In this document: positions 1 through 5,191 of the stretch, piece by piece | How the letters are laid out: every line of letters begins with the position of its first letter | Numbering within the stretch: the stretch's first letter is position 1 | Assembly: GCA_017478185.1 (NCBI GenBank) | Contig: JAFVEA010000003.1 | Location: forward strand, 1 to 64,000 | Length of the DNA: 64,000 nucleotides | Direction of reading: 5' to 3' | From: Clostridia bacterium | Lineage (GTDB): Bacteria > Bacillota > Clostridia > Christensenellales > UBA1242 | The notes under the pieces: model-generated | What the model saw: the letters and a program-made list of their open reading frames with translations, nothing else | Database searches by the model: none | What the model was told of the DNA's origin: nothing | Position numbers and translations under genes: made by a program

Positions 1-3000
1 ACAACTTTTAAGTTTATTCCCTTAAACTCAGAATATAAATAAGCTTGTTTGCTGGCTGTATCGATGCCCAAAACTAGAGGAATGTTTAAGCTTAAGTTGT
101 TTAATTTTAAGTTTATGTTTCCAGAAATTTCAAAGCTAAAAGCATTTCCTAATTTGTTTGTGTTTAATGTGTTTAAAACGCTTTTATAAAGTTTTATTAA
201 ATCTGCTGTGTTTATATAGCTTTCTGGAGCGGTTATGTTTTCAAACTCAATAGCATTTAAGCTTATTTGTGTTATGTTATAGATATTTCCAAAATAACTT
301 ATGCTTTTTAGGCTGTTATTTTCAAACATAGCCTGTATGTTATGTTCATCATAACCAGCTACTAAATTTAATGAGTTTTTGTTTTCAATCAAAGCTAAAT
401 CAAAGTTAATATCTTTGTTTAAATAAGATAAAATCTGCTTAATATCAAAGGCAGGAAGGGTAACACTATCTAACTCTTCATTAAGTTTTTGTGTTGGAGC
501 AGTTAAATAACCACGATAGCTGTTTATTAAATCTAAGATATATTGTTTATCAAACTCAAAATATTCACTTGCAATATCTAAAATGCCTTGGATATCTTCT
601 AAACTTGATTTTAAAGAGTAGGCACTACCATTTTTTGAGATGGTTATATAAATATCTTCTCCAATTAAAACAAGGTTAATATTGATACCCTCATAAGTGG
701 TATTAATTTTAACTTTTGCTTCATTTTGAATGTCTAGCAAAACATCAGCGCTATAAACATCATCGTTATAAACAGCTGAAACATTAAATGCAAATTGTTT
801 GTTTAAAACATAGTTATAAACGCTGTTATAAACATTTTTAAGTGTTTCATAACTTACGCTATTTTCTGGAGAGGTTATGTTGGTTTCAAAGCTAATATCA
901 CTTAAAGCTATATTATAATCGTTATAGTCTAAAGAAATTCCAGCTACTGAACTGTTGCTATATGCAACATTCAAATTGCTGTTATTTAAAGCTAGCATAA
1001 CTCCATTTTCATCTAAGCTAAAGATGAAGTTATCAATGTTTTCATAAATTAAGTTGGCTATGCCAAACACCAAGTTTAGTGTTTTCTCATCCAAAACATT
1101 TTCAAGAGGTTTTAGCTCAGCAAAAGTTTTGTCTGTTGTTAAAATGCTAGTTAAATCACCAAAGCTTAACTTATCTTGCATTTCTTCAAAGCTTGAAGGG
1201 AGGCTGTTTTCAGTTAAAATATTCTGCAACTCATCTAAAGTTATGTTTAGAGATACGTCTTTGTATGTTAAATACAAAACTTTGTTTTTATACACAAGCT
1301 TTAGAGGCTTATTCAAAACATTTGTTTGAAGCATAAACTGGCTAGAGTATAAATCATCAGCATTTAATTTTGCTTGAATTTCTGCTTCTATTGAAATGTC
1401 TTCATAATCAAAGGTTAGAGCTAATGATATTTCTTTTTGCGTGTAGAGCTTTTCTAAAAATTCAAGGCTTGGCAAAATGTTTAACAAATCATCATAATTT
1501 GTTGGCGCTAAAATAGTTAAATCTTTGTCTATTTCTATTTTGGCATCTAGTTTTAAGTTGTTATAATTTACCAAAATATTGTTTGTTAACTCATCTTCAA
1601 AGACAATTGAAACAAAGTTGTTTTCAGATAAATTTAATGTTAAACCTTTTGAGTTTAAAGATAATTTATCAATATATGCAAAAACCGCATCCATATTAAC
1701 ATTTGGCATAGCTTGAACAACTTGTGAAGAAATTATGTTTAACAAACTTTCAACAAGCTGGTTTAACTCGGCGTTGTTTTTAACAAAATCACTTAAGTTG
1801 TTTGTGATGCTTTGGATATCACTAAGGCTGGTTCTTATTTTGATATCTTTATATTTCAAATAAATTGTGCTGTCTATATATGTTAACAAAAGTTCATTAT
1901 CTAAAAACTTTGTTGAAAGTTCTATTTTTAAGTCATCTGCAAAATCCACTTTTGCATCTATTTTATAACTTGTTCCAAAAATGTTGGCATCCAAATTTAA
2001 AATCGCTTTTTTTGTGTTTAAAAGTTCTTGGATAAAGTCAGCCTTTTCTGTAACCACAGAAGAGTTTGCATATTCATCTTGGTTTATTTCTAAAAACTCA
2101 AAATCATCCTCGGTTGTTTTTAATAACATAATAGGGGATGAGCTGTTTAAGCCGAATAGAGATATTGTTTCAATAGAATTGTTTTGTGATATTATTTCAA
2201 CACTAAATTCAGCTAAGTTTATTTTAAAAATATCATAATTTAATATTTCTGAGCCGTCTTCTGCAGTTTTTTCTTCTTGTGTTCTTTTTATGATATTAGT
2301 AATTTCTGATAAATCAAAGCTGTTTACTTTTTCAAGAATCTGCTCAAAAGCTAGGTTTGCGCCAGCAATAGAACTTACTTCAGTTGGGATTTCAATATTT
2401 TTTGAAGCGTATTTTGAAATTAAATCTTTAATTTCTTTTGTGCTTGCCTTAACTTTTATGCCAAGAGCGTCTAAAAACAAGGTGTTATCTTCAAAAACGA
2501 TGGTTACGTTGCTGTTTGAAAGGTTTAAATTTAATTGAGCTTTTAGTGGAGATAGCGTTATACCAGCACGAGAAGTTAGTTTTATGTCACTTGAATTTAG
2601 TTCAGCATCAAAAAACATTCCATTTTCTTTTATGCTGTTTAGTGCCAAGCTTAAAAGCTTTATGGCATCGCTCATATTTGTGTATGATTTTTGCTCTTCA
2701 TTCACTTCAATCTTTATTTCTTGAGGAGATAAATTTGTTGTTGCGTTAAACGAAAGGTTAAAGCGATTTGTTAAGTTTTCATCATGCATTAAATATATTT
2801 TTGTTGGTTCATAGTCAAGGTTTGCTTGAATAACGGCAGTTCCAAGTTCTGGAATGAGTTTATAGATTGGGAAATAAACTTCATAATAGTTGTCAAACTT
2901 TTTTTCTGTTGCTTCAGTTGCAAGGCCTTGAATTTTGTCCATTGATATTTGTGACACATCAAATGGAAGCTCTATTTCAGATAGGGCAGGCTCTATTAAA

Positions 3001-3404
3001 GCAAAAGAAGATTTTAAATCATCTAGCAAGTTTGTTGTTTCAAATCTTAGCTTTTGCTCATTAAACAAAACATAAGCATAATTATCTTTATATGTTATGT
3101 GAACTTTTGAAGGCGTGTTGTTTATGTTTAAATTTAAGTCAACATCAATTGAAATATTGCCAGTTTCTTCATCAAGGTCCATAACAAAATTTCCACTTGC
3201 ACTAATTTTTGTGTTATCTTTTTCAAAGTTTAAATCAAAGTCAACCTTTGCATCTCTTGCGTTCATTATGGATGAAACAACTTTTCCTGTTGCGCTTGTT
3301 TCCAAAATGTTATTCATAGGAGAAAATGTTAAAATTGTAAAACTAGCACCAGCAATAAGTGCTATTATAAACATTGTTAAATATTGCCACCAAACTTTAA
3401 CCAT
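1..3404 (-). CDS. membrane-anchored repeat protein, C-terminus off the window (partial)
   Basis: I do not recognise the family. The frame is open from an ATG at 3404 to the left edge, giving 1,134 complete codons and no stop. Residues 7-29 are a hydrophobic segment after a short basic N-terminus, so the rest is probably outside the membrane. At least six related segments begin near residues 52, 263, 466, 657, 868 and 1088 (spacing 190-220). Each has alternating polar/hydrophobic beta-like strands, then a pattern like 'YLxYKDxxxxxxLxEI' and a helical linker. The look is of a repeated beta-sandwich or LolA/LppX-like lipid-binding fold, but that is only an impression of shape. A GGAG Shine-Dalgarno lies at 3411-3416. 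The start is two bases after the stop of the upstream gene, so the two are almost certainly co-transcribed and may act together in the envelope. Confidence 0.8.
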   Translation of the reverse strand, partial: MVKVWWQYLTMFIIALIAGASFTILTFSPMNNILETSATGKVVSSIMNARDAKVDFDLNFEKDNTKISASGNFVMDLDEETGNISIDVDLNLNINNTPSKVHITYKDNYAYVLFNEQKLRFETTNLLDDLKSSFALIEPALSEIELPFDVSQISMDKIQGLATEATEKKFDNYYEVYFPIYKLIPELGTAVIQANLDYEPTKIYLMHDENLTNRFNLSFNATTNLSPQEIKIEVNEEQKSYTNMSDAIKLLSLALNSIKENGMFFDAELNSSDIKLTSRAGITLSPLKAQLNLNLSNSNVTIVFEDNTLFLDALGIKVKASTKEIKDLISKYASKNIEIPTEVSSIAGANLAFEQILEKVNSFDLSEITNIIKRTQEEKTAEDGSEILNYDIFKINLAEFSVEIISQNNSIETISLFGLNSSSPIMLLKTTEDDFEFLEINQDEYANSSVVTEKADFIQELLNTKKAILNLDANIFGTSYKIDAKVDFADDLKIELSTKFLDNELLLTYIDSTIYLKYKDIKIRTSLSDIQSITNNLSDFVKNNAELNQLVESLLNIISSQVVQAMPNVNMDAVFAYIDKLSLNSKGLTLNLSENNFVSIVFEDELTNNILVNYNNLKLDAKIEIDKDLTILAPTNYDDLLNILPSLEFLEKLYTQKEISLALTFDYEDISIEAEIQAKLNADDLYSSQFMLQTNVLNKPLKLVYKNKVLYLTYKDVSLNITLDELQNILTENSLPSSFEEMQDKLSFGDLTSILTTDKTFAELKPLENVLDEKTLNLVFGIANLIYENIDNFIFSLDENGVMLALNNSNLNVAYSNSSVAGISLDYNDYNIALSDISFETNITSPENSVSYETLKNVYNSVYNYVLNKQFAFNVSAVYNDDVYSADVLLDIQNEAKVKINTTYEGININLVLIGEDIYITISKNGSAYSLKSSLEDIQGILDIASEYFEFDKQYILDLINSYRGYLTAPTQKLNEELDSVTLPAFDIKQILSYLNKDINFDLALIENKNSLNLVAGYDEHNIQAMFENNSLKSISYFGNIYNITQISLNAIEFENITAPESYINTADLIKLYKSVLNTLNTNKLGNAFSFEISGNINLKLNNLSLNIPLVLGIDTASKQAYLYSEFKGINLKV

Positions 3405-3406
3405 AT

Positions 3407-5068
3407 TTAATCTCCTTTTATGTATGTGTAAATTTGATTTAATTTTGAAGGGCAGGTTACAGGAATCATACCATACCTAACGTTATAGGTTTCATCAATA
3501 GAAATTGTGCGCAAGTTATAGTCTTTGTCAATTGAAAATGTTATGTTGCAATATTCAAAATCAGTGACAGTAACTCCACTCATAGCCGAAATTTGTTTCA
3601 CATAATAAGTGTAGGCCATAAGAGAAAACTCATCTTTTGCGCTTGAATTATATTTTGTTTTAAGTTTTATTGTTGCTGTGTAAATGTCTTCACCATTTTC
3701 ATTTGTTGTGCGTGAAAAAGCTGAGCTTTCGGCAACTGTTTGTGAGCAAACAACATAAGGGCAAATCCAAGCGGGAACAACTCCCCATTCATCTCGATAT
3801 TCTTTAACTGTTAAGTTTTTAGGGCTTCCCCAATCAGTTCCAAACTCAGAGCCTTCTTCAGTGCTGTTTAAATCAGTTGGCTTGCCACTATATTGAGAAA
3901 CGCTTTCACTATCTCCATTTTTTTCATAAACAGTTTTTGTTGCAAGTGAAACAAGGCTTGAAATACTTGCCGCAATTTTTGTTCGTTTTGTTGGAGTTAT
4001 TGTTGTTAAGTTTGCAACCGTTTGGTTAACTCCCATAACTTGAAGAGCCCCACTTTCATTAACAACAAAAGATTTGTTTAAAGAATTTTGTTCGGCATAC
4101 ATAAAAACTATGGCTGAATTATAACTTGTTGGAGCTTTTGACTGGTCTATTTTTGATATGGCATCACTGTCTTGAGCCAAAGCCTTTGACACTTGCTCTT
4201 CCGAAAAATCAAAGCTCACAGCATTTGCAAAGTTGCTGTTATAAAAATCGCCAATAAGTGTTCCAACAAAAACCCCAGAACATGCCATTAAAATCATTGT
4301 TGTGAAATATATTTTTTTTGAAAGAACTTTAACCTTTCCTTTTTTTGTTACAAATTGACGTTTTCTCTTTTTTGCTTCCTTTGGCGTTTCTTCATCGTTT
4401 TTTGCTAATATTATTTGAAAGTTGTCACCATAAGTGTTGGGTGTTTTTGTGCTGTAATCTCTAAAAACATCAACAACTTTTAAGCCATTTTTTTTGGCTA
4501 TATTTAAAATTTTTTCAACGTCAAAAATTTTATATTTGTTTTTAAACTTAAATTGTTTGTCTTGAATTTTATATGTGTTTATAATCTTTATTTTTTCTTT
4601 CTTCTTTTTTATGATGCTGTTTTCAAGATTTTCTTCATTTTCTTCAATTTTTTGTGGCTTTGCTGTTTTTAATAATTGGAGTATTATTATGCCATTTTCA
4701 GCCAAACATTTGTTCATTTTGTTTAATGCTATATCAATGCCCAAATAATTTTTATATTTGTTGCAAGCGGAATAGAGCGAAGTTATTATTTCATATTTTT
4801 CTTTTGACTTAAATTTTAGGATTGATTTTTTATAAATAGGCAAATTTGTTTTTTCTTTTGCTTGAAGAGCTTGTTTCTTTTTTGGAGTTATTCCGCAAAC
4901 ATCAAATCCCTCTTTTTCAAGAAGAGATAATAAAGTCCCATCACTGCAGTTAACATCCAAAAGCTTTTTTCTATTTTCTGCGTGCTTTTTTATGAAGTCA
5001 ACACTGGCACTATAATTATAATTTTTGTATATTTCATTTGCTACATCTTTTTTGGTTAAAGTAGTCAA
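3407..5068 (-). CDS. methyltransferase-like domain fused to a transmembrane segment and exported domain
   Basis: 553 residues from a TTG start at 5068, supported by GGAG at 5077-5080 eight bases upstream. Residues ~15-225 resemble a class I SAM-dependent methyltransferase: a motif I-like 'LLDVNCSDGTLLSLL' at 37-51, a 'YEIITSLYSA' strand near 92, 'CLAENGIIILQLL' near 121, and a closing 'FQIILAK' near 217. The motif I glycines are partly replaced (DVNCSDG instead of DxGCGxG), so activity is uncertain. A lysine-rich stretch (229-252) precedes one membrane segment at about 253-274. Residues 275-553 form a Ser/Thr-rich, probably extracytoplasmic domain that I cannot assign. With positive charge before the segment, the methyltransferase-like part should face the cytoplasm. 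It is the first gene of a unit with the large repeat protein downstream. A degenerate, non-catalytic sensor or scaffold role is as plausible as catalysis. Confidence 0.8.
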   Translation of the reverse strand: MTTLTKKDVANEIYKNYNYSASVDFIKKHAENRKKLLDVNCSDGTLLSLLEKEGFDVCGITPKKKQALQAKEKTNLPIYKKSILKFKSKEKYEIITSLYSACNKYKNYLGIDIALNKMNKCLAENGIIILQLLKTAKPQKIEENEENLENSIIKKKKEKIKIINTYKIQDKQFKFKNKYKIFDVEKILNIAKKNGLKVVDVFRDYSTKTPNTYGDNFQIILAKNDEETPKEAKKRKRQFVTKKGKVKVLSKKIYFTTMILMACSGVFVGTLIGDFYNSNFANAVSFDFSEEQVSKALAQDSDAISKIDQSKAPTSYNSAIVFMYAEQNSLNKSFVVNESGALQVMGVNQTVANLTTITPTKRTKIAASISSLVSLATKTVYEKNGDSESVSQYSGKPTDLNSTEEGSEFGTDWGSPKNLTVKEYRDEWGVVPAWICPYVVCSQTVAESSAFSRTTNENGEDIYTATIKLKTKYNSSAKDEFSLMAYTYYVKQISAMSGVTVTDFEYCNITFSIDKDYNLRTISIDETYNVRYGMIPVTCPSKLNQIYTYIKGD

Positions 5069-5191
5069 AATTTTTTCTCCTAAATATATATAATATATTT
5101 AAAATGATAACACAATAAAACAAAAAGTGCAACAAAAATTTTAAAATTAGACCAATTTTTTAAATAAGCACACTGGTTTTTGTAAGAAATA

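Follow-up and report, generated by a model that had tools for sequence, protein, structure and literature searches.

We describe a gene close to one end of a 64,000-nucleotide stretch of Clostridia DNA (the window) that joins a methyltransferase-like domain, through a single membrane segment, to an exported domain that we call EX. Comparisons across related genomes indicate that the core of the system is the pairing of EX with the product of the next gene, an exported repeat protein (PAR), and not the methyltransferase. We tentatively favour a model in which EX and PAR form an amphiphile-binding pair at the cell surface, to which a pseudo-methyltransferase would have been added for docking or output in the cytoplasm. 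The sequence-only reading with which the analysis began had placed the gene correctly at 3407-5068 and did not state its strand, which is the minus strand. The features of the two genes are as follows:

3407..5068, minus strand: fusion gene, consisting of the methyltransferase-like domain, the membrane segment and EX (553 aa, TTG start)
4403..5041, minus strand: methyltransferase-like domain, residues ~10-222 (Pfam Methyltransf_23 above cut-off)
4928..4963, minus strand: degenerate SAM motif I, LLDVNCSDGTLL, residues 36-47 (alignments)
4871..4906, minus strand: end of strand 2, residues 55-66, FDVCGITPKKKQ, lacking the acidic SAM-ribose residue (alignments)
4325..4387, minus strand: basic juxtamembrane segment with VTKxGKxK, residues 228-248 (alignment)
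4250..4312, minus strand: single membrane segment, residues ~253-273 (by eye)
3410..4231, minus strand: EX, the exported domain, residues 280-553, possibly LolA/LppX-like (alignment, model and VIA-align matches)
3..3404, minus strand: PAR, an N-terminal membrane segment followed by tandem ~200-residue repeats (open at the contig end)
1425..3332, minus strand: PAR residues 25-660, repeats with a predicted LolA/LprG/RseB fold (model, Foldseek and VIA-align)

In the window sequence the fusion reading frame is uninterrupted, with no stop inside it and an AGGAG ahead of the TTG start. A single membrane segment followed by about 280 exported residues had been claimed for the protein, and this is the arrangement that we find, with the segment placed by eye at residues ~253-273. 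A hydropathy scan puts a membrane segment at the equivalent position in relatives such as L032, and the VTKxGKxK motif that precedes it is kept in all nine fusions aligned. Because a very basic stretch comes before the single hydrophobic segment, we infer from the positive-inside rule that the N-terminus lies inside and the C-terminus outside. The large exported repeat partner that had been noticed next to the fusion is PAR, which starts 2 bp past the fusion stop codon and within which the repeats recur, for the most part, at offsets of 190-212 residues or multiples of these. This copy of PAR is truncated, because the first position of the window coincides with the end of contig C5 in its 1.1 Mb genome (G000).

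The sequence-only reading had proposed a search of homologues for the same fusion and for the same neighbour, and both were found. A whole-protein search gave some match to the fusion protein in 47 of 197 genomes of the family, and in nine of these, the window's own included, both halves lie within one gene. Eight of the nine are from the genus of the window (G000, G001, G002, G003, G004, G005, G007 and G008, out of nine genus genomes in all) and one, G033, is from another, neighbouring genus; the ninth genome of the genus, which gave no fusion match, is 66% complete. The remaining 38 matching genomes carry one half only, or the halves as separate genes (G046, G069). A weak whole-protein match in G101 was read and carries no EX. 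The two halves in G001 lie on two contig pieces and were counted as one gene; the pieces share an overlap of ~100 residues in which they are not identical, and they may derive from two strains. An alignment-based scan of genome contigs additionally recovered five relatives with named records, all of them uncultured Clostridia assemblies and one labelled Christensenella sp.; the same kind of scan with a single protein as query found no relatives. The possibility that a frameshift or an assembly error had artificially fused two genes is ruled out, because nine genomes have the fusion (G001 in two contig pieces), with the linker and the membrane segment conserved, and we regard the chance of such an artefact as negligible. 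In the EX tree, the eight complete EX domains of fusion proteins all lie to one side of a single, moderately supported branch (80/94), and the simplest account is that EX probably gained the methyltransferase-like half once.

The two halves differ in their distribution. A profile built from 27 EX domains found EX in 173 of 309 family genomes, representing 33 of 42 genera, and in 117 of 396 genomes drawn from the order, a sample that takes in the family; there it often lies inside open frames of more than 1,000 residues. We judge the outside half to be older and wider in distribution than the inside half. To read the EX neighbourhoods we used 60 fetched stretches and the window, picked non-randomly from the best or longest matches. 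These gave 52 rows, from which four ~1,550-residue proteins (L055, L057, L061, L062) were left out; the remaining 48 represent 46 EX genes, since G167 was listed twice and the two G001 pieces were counted once. PAR lies directly downstream in 40 of these 46 genes (39 called by profile and one, L040, by BLAST) and is absent next to EX in six (L051, L053, L054, L058, L060 and L121). The methyltransferase half is present in nine. A profile of this half had no match in the other 37, and because most of those still have PAR adjacent, the conserved function of the system probably lies outside the cell; the methyltransferase-like half was probably acquired later, in this genus and one neighbour. Inspected by eye, most fusion-free EX proteins have either a short basic tail inside or low-complexity sequence that can reach ~200 residues. 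The exceptions are L051 and L054, with an inside part of ~145 residues that is possibly folded (also by eye), and L060, with a second hydrophobic segment.

The inside half resembles the class I SAM methyltransferases, with a profile match that spans nearly the full domain: Pfam Methyltransf_23 matches residues 19-200 at 33.2 bits (cut-off 27), over profile positions 9-163 of 164. It is the only family above cut-off in this half, and the Pfam scan gave no anti-sigma family. The fusion differs from the class I enzymes in having lost the SAM-binding residues and in its attachment to a membrane segment and an exported domain. The same profile recovers seven of the eight genus fusions, missing G008 and scoring G004 and G005 under the curated cut-off. 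A methyltransferase fold with a weakened SAM motif had been described, and the profile match and our alignments bear this description out. The usual SAM loop has the consensus DxGxGxG, from which LLDVNCSDG in the window departs. In the alignment the motif I loop varies by species (NCSDG, NCRNG, NCHDG, NSENG, NSNNP, NTGTG, GANSD), and none of the nine fusions has a complete glycine-rich motif, with G005 retaining two of the three loop glycines. The acidic residue that closes strand 2 normally holds the SAM ribose. It is found in 0 of 9 fusions versus 11 of 11 other Methyltransf_23 matches in the genus, each of which was read as a control. Nine of these eleven controls also have a complete motif I, the other two lacking the first glycine (L140) or the middle one (L143). 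Among eight standalone relatives compared from other genera, the closest are L043, L044 and L045, all three fully canonical, with Methyltransf_23 scores of 57-59 bits as opposed to 33 for the window protein; a more distant one, L067, has a degenerate loop and retains the acid. Loop changes alone are thus not unique to the fusions as judged from these alignments; loss of the acid is unique among the proteins read.

We asked how the coding sequence has been evolving in these genomes from dN/dS ratios, which are unreliable for most pairs because synonymous sites are saturated. Only the closest pair, G003-G008, is well below saturation (pS 0.32 and 0.45), and here the ratio is 0.10 for the methyltransferase-like domain and 0.13 for the exported part. 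The values for G001-G002, a borderline pair near saturation (pS 0.63 and 0.55), are 0.10 and 0.16. The comparison thus shows, for one well-measured pair, an inside domain under purifying selection. The SAM residues are lost yet the domain is not decaying (dN/dS 0.10), and together these observations give the picture of a pseudo-enzyme retained for its shape or surface. Judged by sequence, SAM binding by the inside half is unlikely, and as a methyltransferase the domain is probably dead. The sequence-only reading had offered either a SAM-binding or a scaffolding domain on the inside: scaffolding, rather than catalysis, fits the loss of the SAM residues, and the SAM-binding option is the one that the sequence makes unlikely. 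The further suggestion that an event outside the cell is linked to the inside domain is possible.

For the outside domains we turned to structure prediction, with modest confidence for both models. The model of PAR residues 25-660 (pLDDT 69, pTM 0.50, five sequences) shows a helix and a strand meander in each repeat. Searched against the PDB with Foldseek, it matched 16 chains at E<=0.001, the lowest at 2.8e-5. Fifteen of these are RseB or LprG, and the sixteenth is a low-probability match to neurexin. The RseB alignments exceed one repeat, with an rmsd near 20 A; those to LprG cover a single repeat and have target TM-scores of 0.47-0.51. With VIA-align the match to LolA has a Z of 11.4 over 138 residues at 3.1 A, and 64 chains reach Z>=8. 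The PAR repeats are therefore predicted, by modelling only, to adopt the LolA/LprG/RseB fold, a half-barrel of 11 strands with helices. At the sequence level, the repeats of the PARs scanned gave no Pfam or NCBIfam match over cut-off, and the best match of the PAR profile to PDB sequences had E=0.16. PAR is of low identity and variable length across relatives, and in other genomes it can end in a further kind of repeat: Flg_new (InlB-type) repeats over cut-off are found at the end of all three of the PARs in L076, L047 and L042, and are absent from the L073 PAR, which is cut by the end of its stretch, and from the truncated PAR of the window.

EX is less readily placed. It belongs to no known Pfam family as judged from 27 members scanned, for which the best E-value was 0.029, and the EX profile had no match among PDB sequences up to E=5. 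The EX model (pLDDT 60, pTM 0.65) gave no Foldseek match in the PDB at E<=0.001. Its best VIA-align match has a Z of 7.2 over 124 residues at 3.4 A, which is a level that chance can reach. Eleven of the 12 best VIA-align rows are LppX, LolA, LprG or LprF, at Z 5.9-7.2 and so possibly by chance. We take a LolA-type fold for EX as a lead from this model. A comparison of the EX and PAR profiles found no sequence relation between them.

Small carriers of this fold are well known. LolA, LprG and LppX carry lipids or lipoproteins, and each is a single small domain. The PAR repeats, by prediction, and possibly EX have this fold in common with them; PAR differs in having several such domains on one membrane-anchored chain. 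A second comparison comes from Clostridia themselves. The report on GerS of C. difficile describes a LolA-like fold in an envelope protein that activates the CwlD amidase, and its authors raise lipid binding too (PMC8496864). GerS is a small lipoprotein acting on an amidase; we noticed no amidase beside EX-PAR when neighbours were read by eye. A LolA fold by itself is no proof of lipid binding, since in GerS it serves to activate an amidase. Our search of the literature, limited to the terms tried in one library, found no report of the system described here.

Under the model that we tentatively favour, EX and PAR would be two single-pass membrane proteins that form an assembly at the cell surface. 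PAR would set a row of LolA/LprG/RseB-like half-barrels outside the membrane, with InlB-type repeats at the end in some relatives, and EX would contribute one further, possibly similar, domain beside it. The assembly would most likely bind an amphiphile, whether lipid, lipoprotein or lipoglycan, or a surface displaying one. In the genus of the window and in a neighbouring one, the inside tail of EX would have become, probably once, the methyltransferase-like domain, which lacks the SAM-binding residues and may serve in the cytoplasm for docking or output. Contact between EX and PAR, the binding of an amphiphile and the docking of another protein by the inside domain are all parts that we infer. 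A stronger version, in which the half-barrels of EX and PAR link into a continuous chain, a bridge of LolA-type modules along which lipids or lipoglycans travel from the membrane to the surface, with the dead methyltransferase as its control or docking domain, we consider very improbable.

Three other accounts of the same genes were weighed. One is signalling of the RseA/RseB or MucA/MucB type, in which PAR, as a LolA-fold sensor, would hold EX until a lipid signal frees it and the inside domain would relay the signal. MucA and RseA are single-pass proteins with the N-terminus inside. EX has the same predicted topology and stands beside a partner of predicted LolA fold, and the top Foldseek matches of PAR are RseB. 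The MucB half-barrel is reported to sense lipid A (PMC7400510). The system departs from these pairs in that PAR is itself membrane-anchored and repeated, and in that the inside part of EX is either methyltransferase-like or a tail: Methyltransf_23 is the sole family over cut-off in the fusion, no anti-sigma family was found in it, and the short basic or low-complexity tail that is all that many EX proteins have inside would make a poor output domain. We therefore think signalling of this type unlikely. A structural fibre or adhesin has a similarly small chance of being the right description. PAR would then be a stalk with InlB-type tips, EX a membrane clamp and the inside domain a mere anchor, and the Flg_new/InlB repeats that end three of three PARs, as well as the low identity and variable length of PAR, are in keeping with this. 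A stalk would, however, have little need of a repeated fold of ligand-binding type and a separate conserved EX, and in the closest pair the inside domain is as strongly conserved as the outside (91% and 84% identity, respectively).

In the third account the inside half would remain an active enzyme whose SAM site is unusual, and its substrate would be a membrane or envelope component close to the complex. It would explain why the Methyltransf_23 score is above the Pfam cut-off, why the closest pair is under purifying selection, and why all nine fusions retain both the motif I Asp/Glu and the acidic position of a later K-[YF]-[DE] stretch. Against this, the motif I loop differs between species, and the strand-2 acid is gone from every fusion and kept in all 11 other methyltransferases of the genus. 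We hold continued catalysis to be improbable, more so than either the signalling or the fibre account.

If the amphiphile-binding model is true, this order of uncultured Clostridia, about which little is known, would gain a surface system that is widespread and has no name, and LolA-type domains would be seen to form tandem arrays in a surface protein anchored to the membrane. It would also be a clear example of a methyltransferase that has become a non-catalytic component of a membrane protein resembling a receptor. Because relatives without the fusion exist, what the inside domain does can be tested directly by comparison.

Upstream of the fusion gene we noted one further feature:

5081..5101, no strand assigned: perfect inverted repeat TAAATATAT-TAT-ATATATTTA, AT-rich, located after a -10-like box (by eye) and ahead of the ribosome site

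A repeat with this arm occurs in one place in the G000 genome (both strands searched), and no second copy was found in the window with up to 3 mismatches. Six of the nine fusions have an inverted repeat with arms of 9-11 bp at an equal distance from the start; in the three more distant fusions there is a 9-bp repeat elsewhere (G005) or there are shorter repeats (G004, G033). Shuffled sequences match the arm length in 0-14 of 300 cases for the six, so that a single case carries modest weight. What points to a function is a position held in common by repeats whose arms and spacers differ, and the repeat at 5081-5101 looks like a putative dedicated operator. The start codon at 5066-5068 is TTG at the aligned position in the six close fusions, and G004 and G005 have a probable TTG start further in (by eye); the starts of the six were chosen mechanically as the first start codon, and an AGGAG- or GAGG-like site precedes them.

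Several observations were made on the surroundings of EX in other genomes. Among the EX genes without PAR are L051, L054, L058 and L060; a multi-pass membrane gene adjoins EX in L054, L058 and L060, and a small lipoprotein-like gene lies near EX in L051, L054 and L058. The four ~1,550-residue proteins set aside above (L055:6552-11195, L057:8754-13397, L061:4168-8823 and L062:3925-8538) have an EX-like domain close to their end and a lipoprotein-like N-terminus. PAR adjoins none of the four, and after each comes another giant protein, which has a membrane segment at its C-terminus. At L035:7237-8682 and L036:9436-10855 there are three tandem paralogues of ~145 residues, starting MLxTKxGxPFYL and divergent from the fusion gene. 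Finally, a gene of ~250 residues stands immediately ahead of EX in L042, L048, L050, L052, L056, L119 and L120. A Pfam scan called no transposase family in it, and one of the six scanned gave a weak match to NF047646 (E=0.005). Its product has a helix-turn-helix-like stretch at the C-terminus, and we take it to resemble the REP-associated tyrosine transposases, without their usual histidine motif. It is perhaps a domesticated transposase that regulates the EX-PAR operon in other genera.
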